DNA of 64,000 nt, taken from contig JBBHKE010001182.1 in the NCBI GenBank assembly GCA_037447655.1, positions 62,001 through 126,000 on the forward strand. Reading direction: 5' to 3'. Below, piece after piece: positions 13,655 to 64,000 of the stretch; the stretch's first letter is position 1, and the number at the start of each line of letters is the position of its first letter. A model generated the notes under the pieces. The model had not been told where the DNA came from. It saw only the letters and a program-made list of their open reading frames with translations, and made no database searches. The DNA comes from Zygnema cylindricum (taxonomy: Eukaryota > Streptophyta > Zygnematophyceae > Zygnematales > Zygnemataceae). The position numbers and the translations under genes were made by a program.

Positions 13655-14560
13655 ATACTCAATCACTGTCCAATGTTGAAAGATTCTAGTCAGTAAGGCA
13701 CACCAATCAATGCACAATGATGAACGATTACTGTCACTAAAGAGACACTAATTACTATCCAAAGTAAATGATTTTTGTCAGTTAGATCACATCAATCGCT
13801 GCTTAACGTTCAAAGGTTCCTGTCAGTCACACCGATTAGGGTCCAATGTTGAAAAATTCCCGACATTAAAACAAACCGACCAATGTCCATTGTTGGAAAA
13901 CTGCCATTAGTAAGAGATACCAATCACTGTCCAATGTTGAAAGATTTCCGTCACTATGACACTTTGATCCCTGACTATGTTGAAAGATATCCACCATTCA
14001 CTATCCTATGTGAAAGATTTCCATTACTTAAAAATACCGATCAAAGTCCAATGTTGAAAGATTACCGTCACCATGACAAATCAATCCCTGTCCAATGTTG
14101 AAAGATTCCCTTTACTAAGACATAACAAGCACTAACCAATTTTAAAATATTTATGTCACTAAGACACACCAATCAATGTCTGATGTTGGGAGATGCTGCT
14201 CATTAAGAGACACCATTCACTGTCCAATGTTGAAAGATTTCTGTCACTGAAACACGCCAATCAATGTCCAACATTAAAAGATTCTGGTCACTAAGGCACA
14301 ACAGTTATTATTTAATGTTGAAATATTCTCGACACTAAGTCATGCCATTCACTGTCCGATGTTGAAAGACTCTTGTCAGTAAGACACACCGGTCATTGTA
14401 CAATGTGGAAAGATAGTTGCCACACCAATCACTGTCCAATGATGAAAGGTTAGACTCACCGCTCACTAAAACACACCAATCTCTGTGCATCTTAACAAGA
14501 TTCCTGTCGCCAAGACAATCCAATCAATGTCTAATGTTGAAAGATTGCCGTCCGTGACTT
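13655..14560. repeat. Decayed satellite, about 45-bp unit
   Basis: About 20 units of the pattern CACTGTCCAATGTTGAAAGA, then TTNCCGTCACTAAGACA and CACCAAT. Spacing between clear copies is about 44-46 bp (for example 14049 to 14093). Units are strongly diverged, so the array is old. The short frames over it are chance products of the repeat. Confidence 0.85.
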
Positions 14561-22400: not shown

Positions 22401-23468
22401 TGCAACTCTGAGACCTCCATAGGTTTTCAGAAAGGGCAGCTTGCAAGAAGCCTTTTGGATAACCCTGACCCGTTTGTGTTTCGGCAAGAATAACTGCCAC
22501 CTTGGTAGAAAAAAACTGTGACCACCTTGACCTTTGTGAAGGAAAGACTCCCTTGAGTGGATAGCAAAAAAAATCTCTAAATTTGCTCCCCTGAGCAGTA
22601 AGTTATGGAGGGTCAAAGTTGACCTTGTGCACAAAAGCTCTCTTAGAGAGAGGGTCCTATCTACCAAATTTTCTAAGTCCTATCTCTCTCTAAAACTCTA
22701 TCTACTGACGTACGGCACCAATCATATTACTGTGTCGTATAGAAAGGTACATGTGCCAGCGTACTTTTTGTACGGACATTGTACGACATGGCGAAAAAGT
22801 CGACAAATGTTATAACCGGAGTTGTTTCCGTAATCCTTGGAGATGCCAAAATCCAATGTCATGGTGCCACGTGTCATCCGATGTGGCGATGACCATAAAC
22901 CGCCGAAATCCTCTTCCGCGATCTCGACATTCATTTCGGCCGTCTGATTAAATCTAGATTTCAATCTTAGCCGTCATAAATAAATGCGCGATATTCGTTT
23001 CGCTATCGAAAAAAATGCGTGGTACTTGTTTCTTATCCGTACCTAAATCCGTTTTTTATATAACTGAATCTATGTATCCAATAAATAGTTACCGTTAAAT
23101 GAATTAGTCGATGTGGAAACATTTATAAATTTATCAAATCATATATTTCCTAACACTAGTCTTAGACTAAACGACTAAAGCTACCGACTATCGGCAGTTT
23201 GACGGAAGGTAGGTACCACGATAAAATCTTGGTTCCGACCGGTACTCTTTTAGTAAATCAACAAATCTACTACTCGTATATCAACTAATCTACTACCCGT
23301 AAATCTCCGAATAGCATAGGCAGCCATGGCTCTAGCTTCTTCTCCAACTTTCAGTGACTGCAACAAGTGTGGGAGTTGAAGAGAGGAGTTAGAGGCAGAT
23401 TGCCTCGGCTTCTTTTCTACATTATATTTTAGACCTAGAAAATACTAAAAGAACCATCAATTTCTACA
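22401..23468 (-). repeat. LTR of copia B2
   Basis: Minus-strand LTR beginning TGTAGAAATTG at 23468 and ending GTTGCA at 22401 (TG...CA). It is preceded by a purine tract (AATAAGAGGAG). Similarity with the LTR of B1 (56903-57952) stops exactly at these ends, which is how the borders were set. The ATG that opens gag in B1 is also present near the LTR end. Confidence 0.85.
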
Positions 23469-23970
23469 CTCCTCTTATTTTCTAGTCACTCTTTAATTTC
23501 AGACCACACTTTTCCTTGCAAAAAATTAGCTTAGGGGAAGGCACAGGTTTGGTCATCATATTTGCTACCATCTCGCTACCTGGTCGGTACTCTAAACTGA
23601 TTTTTTTTTTCCTACTTTCTCTCTAACAAAGATGATTCTAATGTCCATGTGTTTAGCTTTAAAATGATTATAAGATTGGAAGAAATAGCGATAGCTGCCT
23701 GATTATCACAAAAAAAATTCTGCACACCACTCTTAAGGTAACCAAGCTCACCAAGCAAAGACTTCACCCACATCAATTCTTTTACAGCAAAGCAAGAGGC
23801 CATATACTCAACCTCAATGGTGGAGTGAGCAATAACCTTTTGCTGTTTGCTACTCCAACAACAAGCCCCATTACCCACATATATTGCATATCCAGAAGTA
23901 CATCTCCTCATCGGAGCATCACCATAACTGGTATCACTCTAAGTAGTGATGTCAGTATTCTCCCCACCCA
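23469..23970 (-). pseudogene. RNase H end of copia B2
   Basis: Minus-strand RNase H C-terminal half with the copia landmarks CTSGYAIYVGNGACCWSSKQ, VEYMASC and FFCDNQAAIAIS. It is truncated at 23970-23975 by insertion of element A, whose LTR starts at 23976. The upstream remainder of B2 is not found on the other side of A. Confidence 0.85.
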
Positions 23971-23975
23971 AATGC

Positions 23976-24942
23976 TGTTGGTTTCAAAGCTTTATCCTCA
24001 GTAGATAAGGCTGTGAGGGGAGGTTTATAACTTAGAATATTTTTGGGTCTTTGAAGTTTAATACTTACCTTGTATAGTGTGACAGTGGATGAGTAACTCT
24101 TGAGTGTAGTGTACGGTCTGATAGACACGCGTCAGTATGAGGGACAATACAGAAAAGGTGGAATGAATCTTTTCCACATGTAACACATTGGAAGAAGTCA
24201 AACCGGTGCATCGGACGGACGAAAAGGAATACCGGACATCTGGGAAAATAAGTGTGAAGAATAAATACAGGACGTCGATTTGAACTAAACTAACGGTTAC
24301 GATTTGAGTGTGGACCACAGGTGACGAAGTACTCCGTAAGCACTCCAAATATTCGTACAAGATTAACCACAGCCGGTTGGACTTATTTAACTACAACTGA
24401 CTAAGCAGCAACATTGTGTGTACGGTGCCAAATGAAGAAAACCTGAACAAACCGTTTCTGGAGTTTAGTGAATTTAAATTTAGTGTGAGAATGCTTGATT
24501 AAGGTTAGTGGCAAACATGTTTTTTTTTGAAGTACATTAGGTACACTGTCGTACTATAATACAATACAACTATTCAGATACTACAATCTGAATGGTCAAA
24601 AGGATCAGTAGATAGACACTCAGTGTATAAAAGTTTAGGACTTAGATATATTTTGGTAACCAGTTTTGAGATAATGCAAATCTGAATGCAGTTTTTGTGA
24701 AACTTGGAGATGTCATATCTTATGGTTTACTGGTTCAATTGTGCTGTAATTTTGGGAATTGACAGTGTGTATGATGGTGATATTCTGTGCTAAATTTGGT
24801 GTAATTTGTACTTGTAGATCAGGTTTTATAGTGAGTGAAACATCACTGTTTGATTGGTTTCTTGGTTAGTTACTGTGTAAGTTATGTCTACTTCTACCAC
24901 TACTGCTGCAGCTCCACTTGTACCGGTATTCATAGATTAACA
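23976..24942 (+). repeat. 5' LTR of copia A
   Basis: 967 bp, TGTTGG...TTAACA. The gag start codon (24884) lies inside it. Relative to the 3' LTR it carries three extra bases just before its end, which create a TAA stop in the gag frame. Confidence 0.85.
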
Positions 24943-25720
24943 CGTTATGGGCCTGTCTCCAAGAATACTAGTCTTTAATGGGCAGAAGTATGTTTACTGG
25001 GCGGATATGTTTGAGTCATATTTTGAAACTGCAGGTTTGCTGGAAGTGATAGATAGATCTCTTGATGAAGCTGATCCATCATGGGCGAAGAAAAATTCGT
25101 CAGCCCGGAACGCTCTGAAGCTTTGCCTTTCGGAGAACATGGTTATGTCTTGAATCAAAATGAAGAAGGCGATTGATATTTGGACTTCCCTCAAATTGTC
25201 TTATGAGAAGGCGAATGTCCAGGAGGAGCTTTTGTTGGTAGGAAAAATCTGGGATTACAAATACTCGGGGGGAACGATGACGGAATATACTGACAACTTT
25301 CGAACTCTTATTGATTCTCATGCGTGTGCTGGTTGCTCTTTCCCAAAGCTTCAGCAGGGTGCTTTAATCATTAGAGGTCTTCCAAGCAGTATGAAAGATG
25401 CATCTGCTGAATTGAAAAAGCATGATAAGTCTAGCTGGACACTTCAGTTAGCCATCAATATTATTTTGGAAGAAGAGTCTACCTCAAAAATGCTAAATGG
25501 AGAAAAGCAACTAGAAGCTTTTATCACAGACTTTGAGAGAAGAGGACAGTTTAATCAATCAAAGAATCAGTTTAATCAGCTTATAAATCAGGGTAATAGG
25601 AATCCAGGACAATTTAGTCAGTTTAATCAAGGGCAAAATAGGCAGTCTTTTACTACATGCTTTTAGTGTTCAGAGAAAGGTCATGGATATTGGTATTTTC
25701 ATAAGCTCAAAAAGGCAAAT
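24884..25720 (+). pseudogene. gag of copia A
   Basis: Starts in the LTR (MSTSTTTAAAP) and crosses the primer-binding site into LVFNGQKYVYWADMFES, the standard copia gag opening. It continues with capsid-like sequence (IWTSLKLSYEKANVQEELLL, EYTDNFRTL) to a Gln/Asn-rich tail and a knuckle written CF-stop-CSEKGHGYWYF, where the last Cys is lost. Stops occur before HVMGL, at about 25151 and inside the knuckle. Confidence 0.8.
24944..24953 (+). promoter_or_regulatory. Primer-binding site, half-tRNA type, copia A
   Basis: GTTATGGGCC directly after the LTR is complementary to GGCCCAUAAC, the anticodon loop region of plant initiator tRNA-Met (anticodon CAU). The site normally expected, TGGTATCAGAGC, is absent. 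Confidence 0.7.
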
Positions 25721-25876
25721 GAAACTAGTTTATATAGGCCAGGGTGTCAGCAAAGTCAGTTTAATCAGGGCTTTTCTGGTAATCGTTTACAAAACAACTC
25801 ACTGTTTTCTTCATATGTAACTTAGGAAGCTGAGTCATCTGGTCTCGATGAGCAAGATACATCGGATATATTTGCC

Positions 25877-26188
25877 ATGGCGGCGGCGATGGAAGGGTCA
25901 AAGGACGCCGGGTGGATCATGGACACGGGAGCTTCGGCTCACATGTGTTGGAACAAAGCCCTTTTTACTACTCTTCAGAATACACCTGCAAAGAATATAT
26001 ACTATGCCTGTGGCATGAGTGTCCAAACTTCTGCTCAGGGTGATGTTTCGTTGCTGGTAGATATAAGAGGCAAGTCGGTTGAAAGAACTTTACACAATGT
26101 CCTGTATGTTCCAAAGTTCAAAAAAAATCTGTTTTCTACGTCTCTAGTTGAAAGCAAAGGATTTGAAGTAACCCTTAAGGGGGGTTAG
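25877..26188 (+). pseudogene. Protease of copia A
   Basis: Contains WIMDTGASAHMC, an intact copia aspartic-protease active site (Asp-Thr-Gly), and LHNVLYVPKFKKNLFS, the usual end of the domain. A stop follows at 26186-26188. Confidence 0.85.
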
Positions 26189-26246
26189 ACATGTTGTCAG
26201 CAAGCTAGGAAAAGTAGCACTCACAGGAACTACAGATATAAGCAAA

Positions 26247-27509
26247 ATGTATTGTATGGATATGACAAATTCTAAGGAAAATGATGTTCTCTATTCAACT
26301 GTAATGTATGAGAATGAGTTATGGCATAAAAGGCTAGGACATGTTAATTATGACAGCTTGAACAAAATGGTGAAAACTGGTAAAATAGAGGGTTTTACTT
26401 TAACAGATCAGCCAGTTAAAACGTGTGATGGCTGCTATTTGGGGAAGATTCACAAGCTGCCTTTTCCAGAAGAATCGGAGCACAGATCAACGAAGGTCTT
26501 ACAGCTCGTTCATTCTGATGTGTTGGGCCCGACTTAGATACCATTTGCGGGGGGGGTCCGCTTCATGGTGACTTTTACTGATGATTTTTCCAGATATACT
26601 AAAGTGTATTTCATGAAAGAGAAAAGTGAGGTTTTTTCACACTTCAAACACTACAAAGCTTGGGCGGAAAAGCTACATGGTACTTCTATTTTGGAAACCA
26701 GATCGGATAATGGAGGCGAGTATATGTCAAATGAATTTAAAAAGTTTCTTTTGGATGAAGGCATCAGTCGTCAGCTGACAGTTCCTTACACACCTCAACG
26801 AAATGGTGTTTCGGAGAGGTTAAATGGAACAGTTACAGAGTGTGCTAGATTTATGCTTGCTGATAAAAGTATAGATATAAAATTGTGGGTTGAGGCCCAA
26901 AATTGTGCAGTGTATGTCAAAAATAGACTTGGGTCCAGATCAGTTAGCACAACACCTTTTGAACTATGGACAAGTAGAAAACCACAGGTCGGTCATTTTA
27001 AAGTGTTTGGGAGTAAATGCTTTATCTTAAATACTTTTCAGTCTACGTGGAAAATGAAGCCAAAAGGGTTACCGAGAATCCTCATGGGTTATGATGATTA
27101 TTCAAAAGGGTATAGGGTATATGTTGAAGAAAAGGACAAGATTGTGGTGTCCAGAAATGTTATTGTAAAAGATGAAGGAGATTCAACAGATCTATTTACA
27201 ATGACTGACAAACAGGCTGAAATGAAATCTCAGGAATATGTCATTTTTGATACTCTGAAAACCACTTACTTTCAAGTGGTTCAGCAACCTATTGCAGAGC
27301 AAGTTTTTTCTGATCAGCAAGATCATGTACAGCCTCAACATGAGCAAGCTGAGAGGCTGAAGGAGCAACCATGGCAGATTATAAGACAGACAAGAAACGC
27401 ACGACAGCCATCGGTCTCCGCCTCAGAATTTCGAGGGGAAGGAGATCTAGCAGCCATCTGCAATAAGGTTCCCACTTTGCATTTTCTTCAACTTCAAGAG
27501 AACCTCTGA
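26247..27509 (+). pseudogene. Integrase of copia A
   Basis: HHCC zinc finger (LWHKRLGHVN ... CDGCYLGK), then the DDE core: HSDVLGP, RSDNGGEY, and NGVSERLNGT with the catalytic Glu. One stop (26535-26537) falls just after the first Asp. The C-terminal part contains the typical PRILMGYDDYSKGYRVY segment. Apart from that stop the frame is open for 314 codons. Confidence 0.88.
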
Positions 27510-27547
27510 CCATCCGGGAGGCCTTCTCATCAACCGAAAGAACTCAC

Positions 27548-28560
27548 TTGATTGAGGCAGCAAATGACGAGATGAAATCGATAATGGAGGCTCAAACGTG
27601 GGAGTTAGTTGATCTTCCTCCGGACCGGAAAGTTATTGGCAGCAAATGGGTGTTCAAAGTTAAGTTAAATCCATATGGAACAATCGAGAGATACAAAGCC
27701 AGACTTGTGGCAAAGGGTTACAATCAGAAGGAGGGAATTGATTTTGAGGAAACCTTCTCTCCGGTGGTAAGGTTTCCAACGGTTAGAATTCCGTTAAGTC
27801 TAACTGCAATTGAAAATATGGAAGTTCATCAAATGGATGTTAAGACAGCTTTTCTTCATGGAGAGCTTGAAGAAACTATCTATATGAAGCAACCAAAAAT
27901 GTATGAAAAGACACGAAAGGAAAGACTAGTCTGTAAACTGCTGAAATCTTTGTATGGGCTGAAACAAGCCCCTAGACAATGGAACTTGATGTTGGATGAG
28001 TTCCTAACTGGACTAGGCTTTAAAAGATTAAGTTCAGATCATTCTATGTATATTCTACAAGGAAATGATGGGATACTCTATATTGCTGTATATGTAGATG
28101 ATCTGCTGCTTATCAGCAAATCTATAGATGAAATAAATCGTATTAAGAGAGCCTTAAACTCCAGATTTGAGATGAAGGATCTTAGTGAAGCCAAATATAT
28201 ATTAGGGATACAAGTAGAGAGAGATACAAATAAGAGACATATAATGTTAATTCAAAAGGAAGCCATAGGTTCCATGCTTGAAAAATTTGAAATGAAGTAA
28301 GTAAAAGGGTGTGTAACTCCTTTGGAATTCCGGAAAAAATTAGAGGAAAGTGACCCTGATTCAGGAATTCTAGTCAGTGAGAGCCTAGAGTTGGGGAAGG
28401 AGGACTTTATGGCATCAAAACCATACAGGCAGGTAGTCGGTAGCCTCATATATTTTATGAACTCCACGAGGCCTGACATTGCAGCTGCTGTTGGCTCTTT
28501 AAGTAGAAGTCTGCATAATCTGAAAAAGGCAGATGGGAGGCTGCAAAGAGAGTTCTGAGA
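27548..28560 (+). pseudogene. Reverse transcriptase of copia A
   Basis: Intact frame 27548-28300 with KWVFKVKLNPYG, YKARLVAKGYNQKEGIDF, MDVKTAFLHGELEE, SLYGLKQAPRQW and the catalytic AVYVDDLLLIS. After a stop at 28298 the connection domain continues with PYRQVVGSLIYFMNSTRPDI to a frame break at 28556. Confidence 0.9.
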
Positions 28561-29063
28561 TACCTGCCAAGAACTCGAAATCTCAAGTTTGTTCTTGGAG
28601 GAGGAGAAGTAAAACTGCAAACTAGGAGCGATGCTAGCTATGGTGACATGCCTAGCAGAAAATCTACTAAAGGTTTAATTTTGCAGATTGGAAATGGAAC
28701 TTGCTGCTGGAGCAGCAAACTTCAAAAAGTCACAGCTCAGTCAACAATAGAATCAGAAAATATGGTAGGAAGCTCTGCCCTCATGGAACTCCTATGGGGG
28801 AAGGTACTTTTGCAAGAATTGGGATACATGCACACTAGTCCTCAGGTGATCTGGTGTGACAACGAAGCAGCAATTGCAATCACCTACAATCCCATCCACC
28901 ACTTCAAGAGTTAGCACATGGATATCAGACTTCATTTTGTCACAGATAAGGTTCTTGCTAGAATCATAAAACTGTGTTATTTGCCTGATGAAAACATGTA
29001 CTAAAGCTCTGCCTGCACCTAAATTACAGTTCTGTAGACAAGCTATTGGTCTGAGTGAATAGC
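28561..29063 (+). pseudogene. RNase H of copia A
   Basis: RDLKF-like start, SDASYGDMPSRKSTKG, GNGTCCWSSKLQKVTAQSTIESE and WCDNEAAIAI, the copia RNase H landmarks. The Asp/Glu set is mostly kept but stops occur after 28911. Confidence 0.85.
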
Positions 29064-29070
29064 TGAGTCT

Positions 29071-29085
29071 AAACCTTTAGGGGAG
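29071..29085 (+). promoter_or_regulatory. Polypurine tract of copia A
   Basis: TTTAGGGGAG directly abuts the TG of the 3' LTR at 29086, as expected for the plus-strand primer. Confidence 0.8.
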
Positions 29086-30046
29086 TGTTGGTTTCAAAGC
29101 TTTATCCTCAGTTGATAAGGCTGTGAGGGGAGGTTTATAACTGAGAATATTTTTGAGTCTTTGAAGTTGTAATACTTACCTTGTATAGTGTGACAGTGGA
29201 TAAGTAACTCTGGAGTGTAGTGTACGGTTTGATAGACACGCGTCTGTATGAGGGACAATACAAAAAAAGCGGAGTGAATCTTGACACATGTAACACATCG
29301 AACAAAGTCAAACCGGCGCATCGGACGGACAAAAAGGAATAACGGACATCTGGGAAAACAAGTGTGAAGAATAAATACAGGACGTCGATTTGAACTGAAC
29401 TAACGGTTACGATTTGAGTGTGGAAGATAGGTGACGAAGTACTCCGTAAGCACTCCAAATATTCGTACAAGATTAACCACAGCCGGTTAGATTTATTTGA
29501 CTACTGCTGACTAAGCAGCAACATTGTGTGTACGGCGCCAAATGAAGAAAACCTGAACAAACGGTTTATGGAGTTTAGTGAATTTAAATTTAGTGTGACA
29601 CTACTTCATTTAGGTTAGTGGCAAACGAGATTTTTGGAAGTACATTAGGTACTCTGTCGTACTATAGTACAGTACGACTATTCAGATACTACAATCTGAT
29701 TGGTCAAAAGGATCAGTAGATAGACACTTAGTGTATAAAAGTTTAGGACTTAGAAATATTTTGTTAACCAGTTTTGAGATAATGCAAATCTGAATGCAGT
29801 TTTTGTGAAACTGCAGATGTCATATCTTATGGTTTACTGGTTCAATTGTGCTGTAATTTTGGGAGTTGACAGTGTGTATGCTGGTGATATTCTATGCTGA
29901 ATTTGGTGTAATTTGTACCTGTAGATCAGGTTTTATAGTGAGTGAAACATCAGTGTTTGATTGGTTTCTTGGTTAGCTTATTTGTAAGTTATGTCTACTT
30001 CTACCACTACTGCTACAGCTCCACCTGTACCGGTAGTCATAGAACA
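29086..30046 (+). repeat. 3' LTR of copia A
   Basis: 961 bp, TGTTGG...GAACA. It carries the same gag start as the 5' LTR, but without the three extra bases, so its version of the frame would be open across the LTR/internal border. Confidence 0.85.
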
Positions 30047-30079
30047 AAAGAAACTGACAGGCGTTAGCGGGATAACCAT

Positions 30080-30385: not shown

Positions 30386-30471
30386 GTCGGTTAGAACTCT
30401 TGTCAGACCGTGTGGCTTTTATTTTGTCTGAAAGTCATAGGGGCAAATATTATCCTAGAAGCTTCATATAA

Positions 30472-30818
30472 GTTGGACATTATGTGGACCATTGGAGGTC
30501 ACAGAATTACAAGTCTCACTGATAGGCTCTATATCAATTTCCACATTATTTCAAACTTTTTATTATATGTGGATGCTATTATTGTTGTCTCGTAACATAT
30601 ATGAAGAGGCAGGAAAACACGGCTAGGGAAGGTAATGACATACCTGTTGGACATTATGTGGACCATTGGAGGTCACAGAATTACAAGTCTCACTGATAGG
30701 CTCTATATCAATTTCCACATTATTTCAAACTTTTTATTATATGTGGATGCTATTATTGTTGTCTCGTAACATATATGAAGAGGCAGGAAAACACGGCTAG
30801 GGAAGGTAATGACATACC
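30472..30818. repeat. 174-bp exact tandem duplication
   Basis: Copy 1 is 30472-30645 and copy 2 is 30646-30818. I see no difference between them. They begin GTTGGACATTATGTGGACC and end GACATACC. The identity implies a very recent event or an assembly artefact. Confidence 0.95.
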
Positions 30819-51084: not shown

Positions 51085-51645
51085 TGTTAGGATTTGGTAC
51101 CGAGAACTCCTTTAGGGACGCGTCATTTTCGTAGCTAAAGCAGCGACGACCAGTGACGAAGTAGTTTCGTTGCTGGATATTTGAAGTGCCAGCGATGAAG
51201 TAGTTTCGTCGCTGGATAATTGAAGTGACGTAGAAATCAAATGTTCGTTTCGTTTCACGTATGTTTGAATAGTACAATAGAAGTGACGTGGAAATTGCTT
51301 GGTAGATTCGGTTCACGTAAGTTCAAGTCGTACCGTGTGATTCAAGTTGGTTCGTGGTTGACTTTTCTAGTCGTACCGTGTTGTTCAAGTCGGTTCAACT
51401 TGTCGGTCGTTCATTTCACCACGTTGACTCTTACGCGTTTCTAGTCGTGTACCTATATATATATTGGTTGAGACTTCGTGGTAGTATTATCTTTTTGGAG
51501 GCGTAGCTTATTAAGGAGGCGTTGAAAGGTCAGAAGTAAAAGAAAGGAAGAAAATGGGTTGTATTTGCATTGTGCTTAATATATTGAATGCTTTTGGAGG
51601 AACACCATTGTTGTGTGTATATTTTATTTGGCTTGTAATTTTTCA
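51085..51645 (+). repeat. 5' LTR of copia C
   Basis: 561 bp, TGTTAGGATT...TTTTTCA. It contains a 39-bp tandem duplication (about 51147-51225), each unit holding a hairpin of the form CAGCGATGAAGTAG-TTTCGTCGCTGG. The borders are set by TG/CA and by the primer-binding site two bases downstream. Confidence 0.88.
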
Positions 51646-51683: not shown

Positions 51684-52985
51684 ATGGCGGAGAAAGGGAA
51701 ATCCCCGGCGGAACCTAGTGGAGGAGTTAGTGGGGGAGCTGTGGAGGAGGAGTTACAAGGACACAATATGATGAGTATGACCAATGGGGGGAGAAAAATG
51801 TGAAGATGGACGAGGGAACGTTTGAACGCTTTCAAGAGTTTCTCAAAACACAAGAAGATGATAGAGATGGAGTAAGTGGAGACTCACACAAATCTAAGAA
51901 AATAAAGAAAAAGAAGGGGAAATCTAAACTTTATGAGGAAGAGGAGGAGAGCGAATATGATGATTTTAAAGTGTTTAATAAAACCATCGTCTTTACGGGT
52001 TCCAACTATGCAATTTGGAAGAGATACATTCGAGGAGCGTTCACACCGAAAAAACTTTGGGACATCGTTAACGGGGAAGAAACACGACCAGATCCTTCCG
52101 TGGATCCAGCCGGAGCACATAAGTGGGACAAGAAAGATATGGCGGCCTCCACCGCACTTATACAAAGTTGTGCTAGTTCTATGCATGAACATCTTCTAAC
52201 TCATGATAGGGCTTTTGATTGTTCGACCGTTTTGCAAAATGCGTTTGAAAAGGGGTTTGAGGCAAATGAAAATTATCTCTTTGAAAAATATATTGGGTTT
52301 AGAATGAAGGAGAATGAGTCCATTGATGATGGAGTCAAAAGGTTCAATGTCATCATAGAACAACTTAACTCACTCAATAACTTCCCCACAGAAAAAAGAA
52401 AGGTTGTTTGTCTTTATGAGGAGTCTTCCAAGCAAGTTTGCGGTAGCGAAAGAGGTCATCAAGGGGCGAGAGAAATCGACAATGGCATACGCTATCAATC
52501 ACTTGAAGAGTACGGAGAAGGAGAAAGCAACACCGAAGGAGGAAAACAAGGGGTCATCTTATCTGAGTTATCAAGAGGAGGATGACGGAGGAGCTTACAG
52601 CTTTAGGGGATCTAAGGGGAGAGGAGGTGGACATCGTGGACGAGGAGGCAGGTCACAGGGCCTAGGGAGAGGCTCATATCAACGTGATACCTCTCAGATG
52701 ACTTGTTACAATTGTAACAAGATTGGGCATGGCTCTTTTGAATGCCCAGACAAAAGTAAACAGTGTAACATTTGTTATAAATGGGGACCCACTGGTCGCG
52801 GTTCTTATCAAAACAAGGGAAACAATCGCGAAGGGGGAAAAGTTAGAGGCGGAGGAAATGGAGGAATTGGTTCATCAAGCAGAGGGGATTTTGTTGGGGA
52901 TGGGCCAGTGGGACATGATCAAGAGTTATTCGTTTCACTCATGGAGGAATCACAGGAAAAAGATGATATCCTATTTCACACATGA
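51684..52985 (+). pseudogene. gag of copia C
   Basis: Three frames. 51684-51803 is the N-terminal leader (MAEKGKSPAEP). 51800-52405 is the capsid part with FTGSNYAIWKRYIRGAF, LWDIVNGEE and FEKYIGFRMKENESI. After a frameshift near 52400, 52404-52985 has RSLPSKFAVAKEVIKG, an Arg/Gly-rich stretch and a perfect zinc knuckle CYNCNKIGHGSFEC. A second knuckle starts CNICYKWGP but has lost its His and last Cys. Confidence 0.88.
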
Positions 52986-53330: not shown

Positions 53331-55560
53331 AACAAGACCATTTGCAGTGGGGGTTGTAACTGAAAATATGCAAAGTAGGTTGATTTGGAGAAAACCAAAA
53401 AATATGAACGCGGACGAAGAAGGGCACCTTCATTCGGCAGAGGTCAACAAAGAGGATCTCAAGTTGTGGCATCATCGTATGTGTCACACTTCAGAGAGTA
53501 ATATCAAAGAGATGATTCGTCATGGTGCGGTTCGGGGACTAGACGTGACGACAGGAGAAAAGGTTATCGGATGTGTAGGATGCACAAAGGGAAGCATAAA
53601 AGGAAGCCTCATCAGGTGAAAGACCTTCAAGTCAAGGCGAATGCCCTTTTAGACCGAGTTCATGTAGACCTTTGTGGTGACATACATCTAGAAACCATTG
53701 GAAAAAATAAATACATTATGGTGATAGTTGATGATTTCAGCAGGAAGACATGGGTGTACCTTTTAAAGGCAAAGTCAGAAGCATTAGAGACATTTAAAGA
53801 TTTTGTGGTTTTGGTTGATAGGGAAAGTGGGAGGCAGGTAAAAGCAATACGATCGGACCGTGGAGGTGAATTTCTTGCCTTCGCCGAATATTGTAAGGAG
53901 ACGGGGATTAACCAACAGTTCATGGCTCCTTATTCCCCACAATTAAATGGAATAGCGGAGAGGAAAAATCGAACATTGCAAGAGATGGTGAGGGCCATGC
54001 TCCACACGACAAAACTCACTCATCGTCTTTGGGGAGAGGCAATCATGGCGGCTAATCATGTTACCAACCGGAGAATAAACTCGGCTTCAGGTAACAAAAC
54101 ACCGGAAGAACTTTGGAGTGGACAAGTGCTTACGGTAAAACATTTAAGGATTCGGGGATGTGAGGCTATGGGGTATGTAGAGGAAAGAAACCGGGAGTGG
54201 AAGTTTGCAGCACAGTCATGGGAAGGATACTTTGTGGTGTATAGTGAAAACTCAATGCAGTATTGTTGTCCATAGCCTATTTCAGCCATGGATTACTCAC
54301 GGAAACACCCACAGACTACCTCAAAACCAGCTGTGTTACAGACAACACAGTTTACTCCAAAATAAAAAGAATCACCTCAAACTTCACCAATATGCAGTAT
54401 ACCATATACACTGTAAACTCTAAAAGTAACAGCCAAATCCACCATGGCATATAGAAGATATAAGGTCCAGAGTTTCCCAAAAATAGGTGACAGCTTCACA
54501 AACTAACCACTTAGACTGTTCACAGAATCTTACAGAGATATTGGATTACAATGAAACTTCACAAACATATAGATTCTATATCATAGAACAACTCCACAAA
54601 GTTTCACATGAAAGAACCAAACAGAGTGATCACACCAACAGGTCAAAGATGCACAAAACAGTGTGCCATTGCTTTGATAAACTTGACTGCGATCCTCAAA
54701 ATATTCTAAGTCCTACAAGTTATACTCAGAGAGTTCACTACTGAATGTACGGAGGCATACCAGCCGTACGGTATCTACCATCTACTTAAACTATTGTAAG
54801 TATACCCGAATAGTTCGAGGTATGTCAGACCGAACAAATCTACACTAATAATTAATTAGCAAAAAGACAAACCTATGTTGTACATAATATTTACACCGAC
54901 ATCTCCACAATCTTCGTACGTCAAAAACCAAGCTACCACTAAGTAAATATCATTACTCACAATCTATACTAGTCATATTATTCGCAGCTGCGTCAGCTGC
55001 TTTGTCCGTGCGGATCGTATCAGGGTAACCGCAGGTGCGTTGACTCGTCTGCGTCGCAGTTGCTCCGTACCGGCGGCGCATATTCATCCAAAATAACCGC
55101 AGTTGCGTTGTCCTGTTTGCGTCGCAACTGCGCTGTACCGGCGGTGCCTGTTTCAACATTTCGTTTATTCCACATCGGATCGCTTCGCGATCCGCCGTCC
55201 TTTTGTCAATGATTGTACCCGCCACTCAGTGAGTCTTTTACATCACATAAATTATATTCGTTCGTTCGCTCCCCCACTCCATGAATCCATTCAAATCTCC
55301 ACATTAAATTCCACAGCGCACTAAGTGTCGCGTACGCACGAAACAAACTTTTCAAAACAACAAGTATCGGATTTATAACCCCGTTACTAGGAGGGTCCGA
55401 GAGTCTAGAAATGTGGAGTTTAATGAAAATTTGGAATGGATGGTGAAAAGAGCTAATGAGTCTAAACGGGCCCAAGATTACAAGGAGGATAGTCATTATG
55501 GAAAATTTAAGGAGAGGAAAAGGAAGAAGAAGAAGACTTGACAGAGGTAGGGACAAAGAA
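53320..55560 (+). pseudogene. Integrase of copia C, split by solo LTR D2
   Basis: Zinc finger LWHHRMCH ... CVGCTKG, a frameshift near 53575, then the catalytic core: HVDLCGD, IRSDRGGEF and NGIAERKNRTLQEM supply Asp, Asp and Glu. The C-terminal domain is cut at 54263 (ENSMQY) by D2 and resumes in frame at 55368 with RIYNPVTRRVRESRNVEF. Confidence 0.9.
54264..55362 (-). mobile_element. Solo LTR D2, minus orientation
   Basis: 1099 bp. On the plus strand it starts TGTTGTCC and ends AACAACA, flanked by the perfect 5-bp duplication AGTAT (54259-54263 and 55363-55367). It is the reverse-complement relative of D1 (62243-63374). It contains the palindrome CGGATCGCTTCGCGATCCG and a tandem duplication of about 70 bp (GCGTCGCA...CGTACCGGCGG). 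Removing it with one duplicate restores the integrase frame of C. Confidence 0.92.
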
Positions 55561-56588
55561 AAAAATGCGATTTGTAGAGAAAACTTCGGAGAAAGTTGAA
55601 AAACCTAAGCCCACCAACAACGAATCACAAGGGGACAAGGTCATTAGAGAATCATCTACTCACACAAACAACGTGACACCAGAAGAGACACCTTTAGAGA
55701 ATATGGTCGATGACAAGATTGAGAGTAGTGATTCGGATAAGGAATTTGCAGAGGACGTACGGAGAAGTAAGAGATCAACAAAAAAAAAGGCACCGGAACG
55801 ATTCTCACTAGGACAGTCATATTAAAAGCAAACTAGAACCCAGAGGACAATTTTTGAACTTAGAGAAGGTAGGTCGGAATCCTTCTTCTTATGAAAGGCA
55901 ATTACAGATTATCGTCTGGCCGATCCTCAATCATATGAAGAGGCTAGAGACTTTGACGAATGGGAGGAGAAGTAGAAATCGACATTTATAAATGAGTTTA
56001 ATTCTGTGAAATCAAATGGATGTTTTGAAGAAGTAGACTTACCAGTTGGTAAGAAGGCGATTGGCTCGAAGTGGGATTTTAAGACAAAGACGAAGCCTGG
56101 GAGAAATTCTTAAATATAAGGCACGGTTGGTATGTAAAGGATTTCAACAGAAAGAGGGTATTGACTATTCACAGACCTTTGCTCTTGTGGTTAAGTTCGA
56201 TTCTTTGCGAGCAATTATTACAATGGCGGCGGCGAAAGGAATGCATATCGAACAGATGGATGTAGAGACAGCTTTCTTAAATGGTGAATTACAAGAGGAG
56301 GTGTACATGAAAATTCGAGAAGGAGTTCCTAGAAAGAAAGGTAAAGTATGGAGGTTGTGGAAGGCGTTGTATGGTTTGAAGCAAGCACCAAGAACGTGGA
56401 ACCATAAGCTTCACACGGTTTTACTAATCTTGAGATTTAAGAGGCTTACTGTAGATTGTGGAGTGTATATTCGGGGAGAAGGTTCGGATCTCATAATTTT
56501 CAGTGTATACGTAGATGATTTCATTTCTATCTCTCACAACTTGGATTTACTTGGAGAATTAAAGATTGAATTTCATAAGTATTATCAC
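55538..56588 (+). pseudogene. Reverse transcriptase of copia C, first part
   Basis: A charged linker (55538-55825) precedes RT proper: KYKARLVCKGFQQKEGIDY, MDVETAFLNGELQEEVYMK, ALYGLKQAPRTW and the catalytic SVYVDDFISIS. The domain is cut after FHKY at 56588 by B1. A stop and frameshift at about 56113 separate the region from the upstream linker. Confidence 0.9.
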
Positions 56589-56920
56589 TATCATTCTCCT
56601 CGTTCCTCGGGATAGGTGACATGAATGCTAAACCAGTTGTTATTCGTGTGGTTGTCTCCTTCTCCGTTCTTTTGTCCACCACCTCTCCTTCCTTTGTCTC
56701 CTCCGTTAAAGATGGATTTGCTTTCCTTGTGAATCCGCTTCCTCCAAACCCTGGAGGGATTCTAAGACTTGATGGACGCCCCACTTGTCCACTCACTATC
56801 CCCCAAAACCTTTTCTCGCATAGAGCTCCTATCATCATACTTTCCCAGTATATGAAGCCAGTTCCATTAAAGATGGGTACCCTAAAGGGTGGGCCTATAA
56901 CCTGCAACTCTGAGACCTCC
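56589..56920 (-). pseudogene. N-terminal gag of B1
   Basis: The start codon at 56922-56920 lies in the LTR (MEVSELQ). The frame crosses the primer-binding site into VPIFNGTGFIYWESMM and FWGIVSGQ, the standard copia gag opening, then a charged linker. It stops at the border with C. The rest of gag is at 61972 and below. Confidence 0.85.
56888..56902 (-). promoter_or_regulatory. Primer-binding site, half-tRNA type, B1
   Basis: Minus strand GGTTATAGGCCCACC, immediately after the LTR. The plant initiator tRNA-Met anticodon arm (GGUGGGCCCAUAACC) is complementary to it at 14 of 15 positions. Confidence 0.78.
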
Positions 56921-57952
56921 ATAGGTCCTCAGAATGGACAGCTTGCAAGAAGCCTGTAGGATAACCCTGACCCCTTTGTGTTTTAGGAAGAATAACTACC
57001 ACTTGGCAGACAAAAATATTGACCACCTGCACCTTTAGGAATGCAAGACTCCTTTGAGTCGATAGCAAAAAGAATCTATAAATTTTCTCTCCTGAGAAGT
57101 AAGTTATGGAGGGTCAAATATGACCTTTTGTACAGAAGCTCTTTGGGAGAGACGGTCCTATCTACCAAATTTTTATAAGTCCTATCTCTATCTAAAACTC
57201 TATCTATTGGCGTACGGCACCAATCATTTTATTATACTGTACAGAAAGGTACACCTAACGGTGTGCTTTATGTATGAACATTGTACGACATGACCAAAAT
57301 GTCGACACGTGTCTTATCAAGATTCGTTTCCGTAATCCCTGGAGATGTCGAAACCCAATGTCGTGGTGCCACGTGTCATTCGATGTAGCGGCGACCATAA
57401 ACCGCCGAAATCTTTTTCTGCGATCTCGACATTCTTTCCGGTTGTTCGATTGAATGTCGATTTCAATCATAGCCGTCATAAATATTTGTGATGTATTTGT
57501 TTCGCTATCGAAACAAATTCGCGGTACTTATTTCTTCTCCGTACTCGTAATCCGTACTTTTCATAACTGACTCTATGTATCCCGTATATAGTTGTCGTTA
57601 AATGAATTAGCCTATATGTTAACGTTTATATATTTGTTAAACCCTATATTGTCTACCACTGATCCTACAATAAATGGATGAGGCTACCGGCTACCGACGG
57701 CATTATCTATCCGTAGGTACTAAGATCAAGTCCTGTAACCGACAGCTCTCATTTTAGTAAATCAACTACTTTACTACCCCGTAAATCTTTGGATAGCATA
57801 GGCATCCATGGCAATATCTTCCTCTCTAACTTCTCACTGACTCCAACAAGTGTGGGAGTTGGAGAGAGAAGTTAGAGACAAACTGCCTCGGCTTCTTTTT
57901 CTGCACTTTATTTTAGACCTAGAAAATACTAAAAAAACCATCAATTTCTACA
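56903..57952 (-). repeat. Single LTR of B1
   Basis: 1050 bp on the minus strand, TGTAGAAATTG...GAGTTGCA, colinear with the B2 LTR (22401-23468). A polypurine tract AATAAGGGGAG (57953-57963) abuts its start and the primer-binding site abuts its end, so it serves as 3' and 5' LTR at once. Confidence 0.88.
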
Positions 57953-57965
57953 CTCCCCTTATTTT

Positions 57966-59942
57966 CTAGTCACTCTTTAATTTCAGACCACACTTCTCTT
58001 TGCAGAAAATTAGCTTAAGAGAAGGCACAGGTTTGGTCATCATATATGCTACCATCTCGCTACTTCGTGAATACTCTAAACTGATTATTTTGTTTTCTAC
58101 TTTCTTTCTAACAAAGCTGAGTCTAATATCCATGTAATTGACTTTAAAATGATGTTTAGGATTGGCAGAAATAGCGATCGCTGCCTGATTATCACAAAAA
58201 AAATTATGCACACCACTCTTAAGGTGACCTAGCTCACCAAACAAAGACTTGACCCACATCAATACTGTTACAACAGAGCAAGAGGCCATATACTCAGCCT
58301 CCATGGTAGACTGAGCAATAACCTTTCGCTGTTTGCTACTCCAACAACAAGCCCCATCACCCACATATAATACATATCCAGAAGTGCATCTCCTCATCGG
58401 AGCATCACCATAACTAGCATCACTCCAAGTAGTGATGTCAGTATTCTCCCCACCCAAATGCAACCATAGATCCCTAGTTCCTATCAAGTATTTAAGAACT
58501 CTCTTAGCTGCCTCCCAATCTTTCTTAGTGGGAGCATTTAGACTTCTACTCAGCACTCCTACAGTTGCAGCTAAATCCGGCCGGGTACAATTCATAAAAT
58601 CGATTAGACTTCCCACTACTTGCCTGTAAGGAATAGTCTGCATGAACTTTTGTTTTTCATAACTTAATTCCTCATCTAAGACTATGACTCCTTCTTCGTT
58701 ACTTTCCTCACTTCCCTTCTTTAACTCCATTGAAGTTGTATAACTATTAGCTTTATCCATCTGAAATTTTTCTAACATGTTCCCTATTGGTTTTTTTTGA
58801 TTCAATCTTATAATCTTTCTTTCTCGGTCTCTTTCTACTTGAATTCCCAAAATATATTTTCCTTCCCCTATATCCTTCATTTCAAATCTCCCCTTAAGAT
58901 CAGTTTTTAGTTTGTTAATTTTTTCCATTGATTTACTTAAAACAACCAAATCATCAACGTAAATTGCAAAAAATATAACACCTTCCTCATCATCAAAAAC
59001 ATAGGTTGAGTGATCTGGGTTGATCCAAATTTATCCCAGACTAGTAAGAAATTCATCAAGCTTTTTATTCCACTGTGGTGGCGCCTGTTTCAAACCATAA
59101 AGAGATTTAATCAGCCGTTATACCTTACTCTCGTCTCCTTCCTCCACAAATCCTTCGGGATGTAGCATGAAGATCTCCTTTTGCAAATCTGCATGCAAAA
59201 AGGCTGTCTTGATGTCTATCTGGTGCACCTCCATGTCTTCCGCTGCTGCCAGAGTGAGAAGTATGCGGTCACAGGGAAATCTGACGACCGGGGCAAAGGT
59301 TTCCTCCTAGTCGATTCCTTCTTTCTCTGTAAATCCATTTGCCACTAATCGAGCTTTGTAACGCTCAATGGTGTTATCCGGGTTCAGTTTTAATTTGAAA
59401 ACCCACTTACAACCGATTGGTTTTCGGTTAGGTGGACAATCCACCAGCTCCCAAGTATCGGCTGCCATAATTGAGGACATCTCCTCATTGATGGCTGTCT
59501 TCAACCGGTTCCTTTCTCGACAAGTCATCGCCTTTCCAAAAGTTTGAGGTTCATCTTGATGAGATAGTTTTGTTACCTTGTTATTAACCTGTTTTTCTTG
59601 CAATATTTTGCTACTTCTCCTTCCCCCCTCAAAATCTTTGGTCAGAATAGATGGTTCTCGTGGGTTCTTTCGAACAATCTCGGCTTCTCCCCTATCCCTT
59701 GGTTCCGAATCAATTTCCACCACGTCTTCCGCTCCAGGTAAAGTTGTCACTGGAGTTTCCGCAGCCGAGTCTTTTTCGGTGTGATTTGTACCTACAAGAA
59801 TGTCATCTTCTCTAAAACCTGGATAGTTAGGAAGCTCAAAATCATCTGAATTTTTTGACTTGAATCTGACTTTTACTGACTTTGTATACTTGAAGGGATC
59901 CACAGACTTTCCTTCATCTATAACTACTAGATGCTTTACCAA
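57966..59942 (-). pseudogene. RT and RNase H of B1
   Basis: RT starts with KWVFKLKLNPDNTIERYKAR and RLVANGFTEKEGID, meets a stop at 59307-59309, and continues through FLHADLQKE and SLYGLKQAP to AIYVDDLVVLS. An open frame 57966-58949 then holds PYRQVVGSLIDFMNCTRP and RNase H landmarks SDASYGDAPMRRCTSG, ACCWSSKQRKV, STMEAEYMAS and FFCDNQAAIAIS. Two further in-frame stops lie between 58950 and 59306. Overall well preserved. Confidence 0.9.
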
Positions 59943-60038
59943 GATTATATCTTCCCATTTTATATTGTAAACACTATATCCTTTAACATCCTCATCATAT
60001 CCTAATTAGAATCTCAGTTTTCCTTCAGGATCTAACTT

Positions 60039-61150
60039 CTAATTAGACCGATCTGTATCTAGACTAAATACTTGACTATCGAAAGCCTTTAAGTGAGATA
60101 TGTCTAGTTTTCGGTTGGTCCATCTCTCATAAGGTGTGTGATCTTTGATAGCTAAGGTAAAAACTCTATTTTTGAGGTAATTAGCACAGTTCATTGCTTC
60201 TACCCAAAACCTTTTTCCTATCTTCTTATCTGACAACATACTTCTAGCACTATCACCTAGTTTACCATTTAATCGTTTAGCTACCCCATTATGTTCCGAG
60301 TTTTCTGGAACTGTCTTTTGGTGTTAAACTCTATCTTCCCTCTGATAATCCTCAAACTGGTTAAAAATATACTCTCCACCATTGTCACTCCTTACTCTCT
60401 TGATTGGAGTTTCATGGAGTTTTTCGCTCCAAGCTTTATATTGTCTAAAACAATCATGAGCTTTTGACTTGTTTTTCAAAAAATACACCCTGGAATACCG
60501 AGACCAATAATCAATGATAGTCATCATAAATCTCCCCCCCCCCGGTGAGGGCACTTTGGCAGGTCCCCAAATATCTGTGTGTACTAAATCTAGAATTTTT
60601 TCTCCCCTATAGGTGGCTGTTTTGGGAAAGGGCAATTTGTGCGCTTAACTTGAGCACATCCACTACAATCACTTAGATTCTCACTCTCACTGAATTGAAT
60701 TCCTTCCACCACTCCCATCTTTTTCATCTCTTTTAACTTATCTAGATTCACATGCCCAAGCCTCTTATGCCACATCATTATATCATGAACACTAGCATAA
60801 TAAAGTTTCTTCTTTTCATTGCTTAAAATCAGCCTAAACATCCCTTGGCTACCTTTTTCAGCAGTGAAATAAACTTTCTCCTCAAAACTAGCAGTAAAGA
60901 CTCCTTTCCTAGTGCTAGTATCAAAACCCTTATCATCTAATACAGACGTAGAGATGAGGTTTTTGTTCAGCTCCGGAATAAACAATACATCAGAGAATGT
61001 AACTATGGATGTCTTTCCTTCTACTAACACTTTCAGATCTACCGATCCTACAAGAGTAGTAGTGACTATCCTCCTATCCCCGTACTCTATCTCTATGGTG
61101 GGAATCTTTCTTATCTTAGTGAACATGTGTTTATCCTTACACATGTGCAT
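60039..61150 (-). pseudogene. Integrase of B1
   Basis: Zinc finger MWHKRLGHVN ... CSGCAQVK, first Asp in VHTDIWGP, second in VRSDNGGEY. A stop region (60240-60323) precedes the C-terminal portion RFWVEAMNCANYLKNR. A frame change occurs between 60590 and 60635, and a run of C at about 60533-60543 is a slip-prone site. Confidence 0.88.
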
Positions 61151-61972
61151 GGAGGCACCTGAATCTACAATCCAGCCTGCTTCACCTTTCTATCCACCGA
61201 ATGCACATTTCTGCTTTCGTGGAATTTCTACCTCGTTTGTCGCTTCCAACTCCTCATCCAATAGGAGCTCATCGTCTTCGTCTTCGGATTCTACCTCATG
61301 TACCTGTGTCACAAGGGCCTTTTTCTTTCCTGCCGCGGTTCCACTTGTCTGCCCCTCCTTTAAACGAAGCTTGGTTAGCTTAGTGCACTTCGCCATATAG
61401 TGCCCTGGTTTCTTATTAACCATTGGAAGCCCTTGGTCCGAACTCGTCGGTCTGATTTTTTTGCTCCCCCCCTCCGTATTTTCCAACCGGTCTCCGGGAA
61501 TCCTTATTCCTCCAATCGGTCCTAGCTGCCAAGGCTTGCCCACTCTTTCCTCCCCTTCGGATCTCAATCGTATTCTCTCGAAAGAGAATCATTCCTACCA
61601 CTAAGTTATATATCCACGTTGAGTCTGGCAAGTCCTGCACACGGTTGACTATGTTCTCGAACTCATCGGGTAACTTCATCTGTAAACAATTAACCTTTTC
61701 TTTTTCACTAAAGTCTTTTCTAGCACTCTATAGCTCCATGAAAAGTGTAGCAAGCTCATTGCAAAAGTCTAACATCTTCCCCGCTTTGTATACATACTCC
61801 TTAACTTTCTGATCAACCAACTGTTGTTGCTGAATCGTACCACTTTGGTGCATCTCTATGAGAGCCATCGAAAGATCGGATGCCTTTTTTACTTGCAAAT
61901 GAGGAAATGCAAGTCCTTGAGTAAGATGGCGGAGGATGAAGTGCTTTGCCGCCATATTGTTGAAGTCCCAGA
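61140..61972 (-). pseudogene. Middle and C-terminal gag plus protease start of B1
   Basis: From the border at 61972 gag continues with WDFNNMAAKHFILRHLTQG, MLDFCNELATLF and KLPDEFENIVNRVQDLP. The zinc knuckle is degenerate: GHYMAKC remains but the first two Cys are gone. Protease begins with GWIVDSGASMHMCKDKHMF (Asp-Ser-Gly intact), just after a stop near 61190. Confidence 0.85.
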
Positions 61973-61977
61973 ATCAC

Positions 61978-62242
61978 AGACTTAGGAGATGCACAATACA
62001 TTGTGGGAATTCAAATTTAGAGGACGAGGAATAGAGACATTAAGTTGAGCTAACAACAATATGCAAAAGAGGTACTGGAAAGATTTGGGTTTTTACATTG
62101 TAAGCCATTTGGAACTCCCCTTCATCCTCGTGATAAGCTTTCTAATTTTATTAAAAGTACCGAGGTTGATGTTCCTTATAAAGAGGCGGTCGAAAGCTTG
62201 ATGTATTTGAGTGTCGGAACAAGGCCAGACATTAGTGCCGCA
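61978..62242 (+). pseudogene. Reverse transcriptase of copia C, second part
   Basis: Resumes directly after the ATCAC duplicate with TDLGDAQYIVGIQI, YAKEVLERFGF and YKEAVESLMYLSVGTRPDI. Two stops occur before YAKEV. Relative to the first part (ending 56588) the frame is off by one, so a small indel accompanied or followed the B1 insertion. Confidence 0.88.
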
Positions 62243-63374
62243 TGTTGGTTTTCGGAAACCTTTAGTCCTCTCTGTATCACATTGTTATGCTGCCATGCTG
62301 CGCTGATTACATCGCAGCCATAGCAGCGTGTGTGATAAAGATATTTTGCTGCCATACTGCGCTAGTCACATTGCAGTCATAGCAGCTTGTGTACTAGGTA
62401 CTAAGTGTATTGAGACGTATGGATCTAATTGAGTGGCGCGAACAAACATAAGTCAAATGAGCGGCGGATCGCGAAGCGATCCGATTTGGAATATTGTTGA
62501 AAGGTACACTGCAAGTACGAATCATAATGATGACGAAAGGGATTCAAACTGAAAGTTGCGTGAGAGGCATTGAGTGGAAAGGACGCCACGTGTATGGATT
62601 AATTTTGGTGAGGTGGCATCAGTTCGTCAAGTGATTGTGTGACTGTGTGACATGACATCAAGTATGCGGAAAAAGAGCTACGGACGGCGGCGCCGTCAGT
62701 TTGGTGAGGGACGCGAAATTGCGTCCGTCACAAGATACTTATTTTGGACGGTCCCGATTCAATTGACGGAATTAGTAAGATTTGTAAATATCTAACGATG
62801 TTTTGTCCTGTGTATTATTTTTTAGTGTAGGTTTCAGGTACACTCACATTAATAGAGGTAGTTTATTGATTACGAACGGCTGGTATGCCTCCGTACAGTT
62901 AGTAGTAAGCTGTAGTGTATATTTGTAGGACTTAGTCATTTTTGACTCAGGAACTTTTTGGACAGAAACTGTTTCTGCTCCTTTTTGGGATTTTCATCTG
63001 AGAATTGCTCTCAGTTTTATTGGCAAAATTATCTGAAATTTTGCATGTGTGTTCCTCTTTGTATTGGCAATATTGTGGCGAATTTGCAGACCTATTGTGT
63101 GTCTGGTTTGCTTGGGGCTTCATTGTGAAGTTGGTCATATTTATTAAAGTTCTGGCAGGCTGCAACTTTGACTGAGTGTTGTGATTATTCGGTTTGGTAT
63201 TATTATATGAAATTTGGTGGGAATACTTAGTGGACTAGGAAATATCCGGTTGAGTAGTTTCATCTTGGTTTGGTTATTCTGTAGAATTCTGAGTGGAATC
63301 AAAGGAGGCTGTTTTGGGGTAGTCTGTGGTGCTTCCGAGGGTACATTCATGGCTGAAAAGGGCTATGAACAACA
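62243..63374 (+). mobile_element. Solo LTR D1, plus orientation
   Basis: 1132 bp, TGTTGGTT...GAACAACA, flanked by the perfect 5-bp duplication CCGCA (62238-62242 and 63375-63379). Removing it with one duplicate restores the frame of C (ISAA then VSVVNQ). It contains the hairpin CGGATCGCGAAGCGATCCG (about 62465-62483) and a tandem duplication with GCTGCCAT(G/A)CTGCGCT. It is related to D2 in inverted orientation. Confidence 0.93.
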
Positions 63375-63379
63375 CCGCA

Positions 63380-63967
63380 GTGAGTGTAGTTAATCAGTAT
63401 TGTAGTTATCCAAAAAAGGTTCATTGGGAGGCAGTAAATTTTTTTTTTCGATATTTGGCTGGATTCCTTAGTCTTGGAATTATTTATAGAAAGAATGAGA
63501 GCTTGAGTTGTTATGGCTATTGCGATGTCGACTATGGAGGGGACCATGATACAGGAACGTCTACGTCAAGATATATGTTTTTACTTGCAGGAGGAGCCAT
63601 CTCGTGGAATTCCCGTTTGCAACCTACTGTGGCACTTTCATCTATGGAGGCGGAGTATATGGCTGCCTGTCATGCTGCAAAGAATGATGTGTGGATTAAA
63701 GAATTTCTATTGGAGGTAGGAGTTGAAAAAGAATGCATGCAAATATTAAGTGATAACATGTCCTCCATTGTACTTAGTAAAAATCATATTTAACTTAAGC
63801 GCACTAAACACATTAAAATTCAGTGGCATTTTGTTCAAGATTTGGTTTTGGAAAAAGAAGTTGAATTTCCGTTTGTACCCACAGAAGAACAAGCTGCTGA
63901 TATATTAACCAAAGCAGCATTAAAAGAATTTTATGAGATAGGAAAGAAATTAGCTAGCATGGAGTAA
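63380..63967 (+). pseudogene. RNase H of copia C
   Basis: Continues with CSYPKKVHWEAV, GYCDVDYGGDHDTGTSTSRY, SSMEAEYMAACHAAKN and ILSDNMSSIVLSKN, the copia RNase H landmarks, to ADILTKAAL near the end. One stop (63791-63793) interrupts it after KNHI. The frame ends with TAA at 63965-63967. Confidence 0.9.
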
Positions 63968-63989
63968 GAGGGATCTTTGAGTATCTCTA

Positions 63990-64000
63990 TAAGAGGGGGA
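63990..64000 (+). promoter_or_regulatory. Polypurine tract of copia C
   Basis: AAGAGGGGGA at the very end of the window. The 3' LTR is expected to start with TGTTAGG at the next base. Confidence 0.8.

Follow-up and report, generated by a model that had tools for sequence, protein, structure and literature searches.

In a 64,000-nucleotide stretch of the Zygnema cylindricum genome (the window; C886:62001-126000 in an assembly of 352.8 Mb and 2689 contigs) we characterized B1, a minus-strand copia retrotransposon copy of a family here called B, which sits in the reverse transcriptase (RT) gene of another, plus-strand copia element, A. B1 is a single element unit in permuted order, with one internal long terminal repeat (LTR), and most likely represents a one-LTR circle of a copia element that break repair captured, a clean and well-resolved example from nature. 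An initial annotation had described it as a permuted, single-LTR insertion bordered by a 5-bp target duplication; that observation is partly confirmed, in that the permutation and the single LTR hold and the target duplication does not.

B1 is one permuted unit

We delimited B1 by comparison with other copies of both families in the same genome. A 1001-base query from the left end of B1 (40 places scored of 10641 first-look candidates) yielded 27 further B copies, and a 350-base query running up to its left edge (40 places scored of 387 candidates) yielded 29 further A copies. Together with reading of the junctions, these place B1 at 56584..61971 on the minus strand, with ownership ambiguous between A and B for base 56583 (T) and, in some A variants, also for 61970-61971 (AG). 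The element had been given as 56584..61977; we correct this to about 56584-61971, base 61972 and the ATCAC that follows reading as host.

From high to low coordinates B1 runs through the 3' part of gag, the Pol_BBD and gag_pre-integrs domains, pieces of RT, a purine tract, the LTR and the 5' part of gag, all on the minus strand. The 3' gag part begins at the break point and covers 61390..61971, its lower limit being approximate; it was recognized by translation and by adjoining the other gag half in the B copies, and two pieces of it scanned against Pfam gave no match. The Pol_BBD beta-barrel and gag_pre-integrs domains follow at 60590..61150 (PF22936, E 1.4e-16; PF13976, E 5.6e-12), then the start of RT at 59307..59942 (N-terminal part of PF07727, E 1.4e-11) and the end of RT with the RNase H region at 57966..58949 (C-terminal part of PF07727, E 1.1e-9; RNase H from position only). 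The 5' gag part, 56584..56887, has a gag-like translation, is continuous with the other half in copies L002-L028, and matches PF14244 below cut-off (E 0.014). With PF07727 in two pieces, PF13976 and PF22936 above cut-off, B has the domain content of a Ty1/copia family, gag entering only through the weak PF14244 match. In B1 gag_pre-integrs stands before RT. Translation and domain scans thus bore out the earlier description of a minus-strand copia unit that starts and ends inside gag. LTR tips, the mark of normal integrase-mediated insertion, lie at neither end of B1, and its ends are not TG...CA.

The single internal LTR (56903..57952, 1050 bp) takes its edges from other copies, through a survey of gag-LTR-RNase H continuity that returned 46 matches from 40 places scored of 13082 candidates, a lower bound covering one LTR family. 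Twenty-five of these matches begin within 6 bases of query base 204 (56903) and reach within 10 bases of the query end; nine begin at query bases 1-3 and end at 1253-1257 (1253 being 57952). On one side the LTR abuts a polypurine tract read directly at 57953..57960, and on the other a probable primer-binding site at 56888..56902, placed from the inner LTR edge in other copies and from sequence reading, which also upheld the annotated arrangement of one LTR between a purine tract and a plausible primer site. The primer site may be of the half-molecule (internal, anticodon-side) initiator-tRNA type of copia elements, which it resembles. Candidates for both the primer site and the LTR end that lie within the LTR were ruled out by the edges in other copies.

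The length of B1, 5388 bp from 56584 to 61971, is that of one unit: a B copy on contig C346 measures 6433 bp (124237-130669), and subtracting its 5' LTR, about 1046 bp long, leaves about 5387 bp. This copy, with an LTR at each end and GGTAG on both flanks, serves as one control for normal insertion. An opened one-LTR circle yields a permuted insert of exactly one unit with one LTR, as found in B1; the ends of an insert copied from a tandem, or left by deletion within one, would fall anywhere in the unit.

Both families have uninterrupted sites

The two gag parts split in B1 are adjacent in 27/27 other B copies, where 7-18 bases separate the aligned pieces. Most copies have 7 bases there, versus 1 in B1 if the earlier boundaries are used. 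The initial annotation had gag continuous and in frame across the joined ends; the frame holds, but with those boundaries 6 bases of most copies are missing. Gag bases missing at the join relative to other family members had been named beforehand as grounds for rejecting the interpretation, and for those boundaries they are indeed missing.

In A, RT is uninterrupted at the B1 site in 29/29 other copies. Matches to the 350-base A query run through query base 345 at the 39 other scored places and enter ATCAC at none of them. A 160-base query spanning the left junction matched in full in the window only; the 39 other places scored matched at bases 1-80 (36 places), 5-80 (one) or 1-90 (two), so that in window coordinates 37 stop at 56583 and two at 56593. 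In two multi-copy families that are independent of each other, both breakpoints agree within about 5 bases, more than chance would give. The copies of both families, with their empty sites in this genome, lend good support to the earlier proposal that a one-LTR circle was opened in gag and inserted.

The flanking ATCAC motifs come from different elements

ATCAC is present at 56584-56588 and again at 61973-61977, as first annotated. Against the family copies, these are no target duplication: the left motif (56584..56588, minus strand) is B's own gag and the right one A's own RT. We assign the left motif to B because 20 of the 24 B copies that could be scanned read ATCA followed by A, C or G just ahead of TATCATT, with ATCAC in 3 of these (the break site was readable in 24/27 copies; L011, L012 and L026 lie outside the pattern). 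We assign the right motif to A because 27/29 A copies have ATCAC in a short stretch past ATT, after four or five other bases, and none of the 29 has it directly after ATT; in 23/29 the motif is preceded by TTA, then A or G, then A.

Insertion of an opened circle by integrase, or at a break staggered by 5 bp, would give a true duplication and so explain why ATCAC flanks the insert. The empty A site should then read ATTATCACAGAC, with the motif directly after ATT as in no A copy, and the readings of B at its break and of A ahead of its motif both go against it. A would further have to have lost about 5 bases, and B 6, each at precisely the right position, and the ends of the insert are not TG...CA; we regard such an event as extremely unlikely. 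Of the routes proposed at the outset, joining independent of integrase is supported, and a staggered break whose filling-in would yield a duplication is not.

At the left junction, A ends ...AAGTATT and B starts (T)ATCACTATC, with 1 base in common. On the right, B ends ...GTCCCAG and A resumes at AATCACAGAC, with an overlap of 0-2 bp: two bases if this A copy had AG ahead of AATCAC, as 6/29 copies do, and none if it did not. The total loss is six bases, 2-5 from A and 1-4 from B according to the ownership of the common bases. Homology between B1 and its target amounts to the 5-bp match, which is out of register with the right join; no longer stretch was found. Overlaps this short, with so few bases lost, are typical of end joining, and there is no target duplication.

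Probable capture of an opened circle and its alternatives

It is thus likely, in our judgement, that a one-LTR circle of copia family B, opened in gag, was end-joined into a break in A's RT. We infer that the unit was a circle and that both molecules were broken. The circle, formed from fresh complementary DNA (cDNA) or by LTR-LTR recombination out of a chromosome, would have been opened by a break inside gag, and a double-strand break would have arisen in the RT of the resident element A. Both ends of the circle would then have been joined into the A break by classical or alternative end joining, with integrase taking no part and no target duplication being formed.

Synthesis-dependent repair, in which a broken A end copied one lap of a B circle, or of a chromosomal B tandem, and rejoined the other A end, would account for the same short overlaps and small losses, which also suit template-switch repair, and tandem-like B copies do exist in this genome (on C534 and C2217). 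Copying of this kind should stop at an arbitrary place, however, and a stop 1-4 bases from a full lap is expected only from a unit-length opened circle; we consider this route unlikely. A single crossover of a B circle with A at the common 5 bp could draw on the ATCAC or ATCA that both families carry at the site. It predicts A's TTA, A or G, A ahead of the left ATCAC and B's GGT ahead of the right one, but the window has neither, and both junctions fit only with two further small changes, which makes a crossover very unlikely.

Four points weigh against capture of an opened circle by end joining. First, just one such copy was found among the 40 scored places of the survey. Second, B copies on C1800 and C1744 lack a duplication at the edges examined, so that one of three B copies examined has one. 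Third, the common ATCAC lies 0-3 bp from both breaks. When random break pairs were simulated on real sequences of the two families (L032 for A, L003 for B), a common 5-mer occurred near the break in 5.6% of pairs and at the offsets seen in 0.8%; the match is thus not far past chance, and could be a modest, mild coincidence or a hint of guidance by short homology. Fourth, both junctions are known from the assembly alone, and the genome-wide junction search covered only the left one. With A and B both multi-copy, an assembly artefact fusing A and B reads would have the same appearance, but it would need two independent false joins at neighbouring bases in A and in B. The stretch 55500-63000 contains no N, and the left junction was fully matched at 0/39 other scored places and so is not a common chimera; we find an artefact highly improbable.

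Age of the insertion

B1 must be younger than the A insertion that it interrupts. The LTR pair of A differs by a Kimura two-parameter (K2P) distance of 0.093, or 0.047 per lineage, and for the two gag pieces the terminal branch of B1 measures 0.050 (right, 26 sequences including B1) and 0.067 (left, 28 sequences). These branch lengths fit capture shortly after the arrival of A, and also an older source or rates that differ. Both fresh cDNA and excision of an older copy are compatible with this dating as the source of B1.

Other copies of family B

The initial annotation had suggested looking for further permuted copies, and the survey found no second single-unit permuted copy among its 40 scored gag-LTR-RNase H places, B1 being the only one. 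Its 46 matches comprise 25 of the 3'-LTR kind, nine of the 5'-LTR kind, three full-span matches (B1, C534 and C2217), one on C1744, one LTR only, one truncated copy and six weak side matches.

We rejected C534 and C2217 as further single-unit permuted copies. Probing with 20 probes of 201 bases, 16 of which matched B1, revealed an additional LTR and an adjacent unit as far as sampled, and both copies look tandem: a partial unit, an LTR, a further unit and an LTR, at G000:C534:20200-27800 and G000:C2217:140200-149800. On C2217, the probe covering 148600-148800 aligns to B in reverse orientation, at 76%.

The C1744 copy (L063:3644, L086:384) carries 48 bases of 3' internal sequence ahead of its 5' LTR, with unmatched flanks. 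It was set aside as a permuted copy on finding the 3' LTR there as well; it may be a tandem remnant or another unusual insertion.

Within the window a second B copy, 22401-23975, consists of RNase H and an LTR whose outer edge is 22401. It starts exactly at that edge and runs into RNase H, and was rejected as permuted, being an ordinary 3' end. It is cut at about 23975 by a copia element, C; its continuation beyond C was expected and was not found within the window, where a flank seems lost.

The host element and other repeats in the window

Element A opens with a 5' LTR at 51085..51645 on the plus strand (91.3% identity over 561 bases to L059:1503-2063; TG...CA edges), followed directly by TGGTATCAGAG. 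CCTCC stands on both sides of this LTR, yet inside a CCCT repeat. The 3' LTR lies just past the window end, equivalent to 64002-64562. Between them, also on the plus strand, are gag at 51800..52585 (PF14223 Retrotran_gag_2, E 6.5e-18), integrase at 53571..54275 (PF00665 rve, E 1e-13), and RT in two parts. The left part, 55363..56583 (PF07727 RVT_2, E 5.5e-49), runs to the B1 junction; the right part, 61972..62242, starts with A's own AATCACAGAC and is adjacent to the left part in the other A copies. The 3' part of A at 63375..64000 is the RNase H region by position, and one open reading frame scanned within it gave no Pfam match.

Two solo LTRs interrupt A in addition to B1. The first (54264..55362, TG..CA edges), into which the last bases of the integrase feature extend, has AGTAT on both sides, judged from the flanks alone to be a probable 5-bp duplication; A similarity picks up again at 55363 in the 8/8 copies displayed. 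The second (62243..63374) has CCGCA on both sides and a single CCGCA in the 4/4 A copies displayed; checked against these empty sites, CCGCA is the 5-bp target duplication of a normal insertion, and A similarity resumes at 63375-63377 in 8/8 copies displayed. The two solo LTRs, likewise controls for normal insertion, belong to the same further family and lie in opposite orientation.

Element C, at 23975-30047, has LTRs of about 960 bp with a K2P distance of 0.071. We considered it as a tandem and rejected this, its two repeats looking like ordinary LTRs; no duplication was established for it. Beside it, at 30465-30812, is a nearly identical tandem duplication of about 174 bp that looks recent, and an imperfect repeat array with a 44-bp period occupies 13660-14557.

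Discussion

One-LTR circles are extrachromosomal by-products of Ty1/copia elements; B1 shares their unit length and single LTR, but sits in a chromosome. In yeast, capture of Ty1 cDNA at double-strand breaks joins retrotransposon DNA into a break, as in B1, in an experimental system and mostly with linear cDNA pieces. Caulimovirids are viruses not known to have an integrase. Excerpts of PMC10377300 describe endogenous caulimovirids as filler DNA in break repair, joined by non-homologous end joining or microhomology. Like B1 they are reverse-transcribed circular DNA thought to have been captured in plant genomes; the B family, however, normally inserts by its LTR tips.

The other studies are likewise cited from excerpts. 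In plants, retrotransposon circles are commonly seen as a dead end and as indicating activity (PMC5338827, PMC10462705). The Arabidopsis copia element EVD is reported to form extrachromosomal circular DNA (eccDNA) carrying one or two LTRs, and transposable-element eccDNAs are generally regarded as a dead end, with suggested exceptions in yeast, cattle and cancer cells (PMC10462705, 2023); the truncated new insertions described there all have two LTRs. For re-integration of plant eccDNA, the excerpted text of PMC5338827 states that there is no evidence. Routes of one-LTR circle formation are described in PMC9694575, where reinsertion is thought to produce structural variants, and a permuted rotifer scaffold was taken as a circle and not as an insertion (PMC5408684). 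The excerpts of PMC9258317 and PMC3648361 contain nothing further on re-inserted circles.

Two further systems bear on B1. One-LTR circles formed by alternative end joining have been tied to new insertions of Drosophila mdg4 and mouse IAP, in a study cited in PMC12786077; they resemble B1 in the link from circle to insertion, and B1 differs in ending in gag. Integrase-independent retrotransposition of Tf1, through Rad52 and single-strand annealing, favours homologous targets (primer-binding site, polypurine tract, other copies) and tandem products (PMC12786077). That route and B1 both do without integrase, but the target of B1 was a copia element of another family, and the overlap was 0-2 bp. 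Judged from titles and the openings of abstracts, we found no report in the literature of a base-resolved re-inserted circle of a plant LTR retrotransposon.

A wider proposal, which we regard as speculative and rather unlikely, is that one-LTR circles are a rare, heritable second route of copia spread here. They would re-enter the chromosome by break repair, possibly at very short homology such as the ATCAC common to RT and gag; the same route might also have produced some copies of tandem-like form (C534, C2217).

We suggest that B1 is a fossil of a circle that returned to a chromosome, resolved to the base and with empty sites for both partners, and that a presumed dead end can leak. Continuity of gag, LTR and RNase H within a single-unit insert provides a test that can be applied to any genome. 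B1 also cautions that a target duplication is to be judged by family copies and not by flanking repeats, for which five matching bases are not enough.

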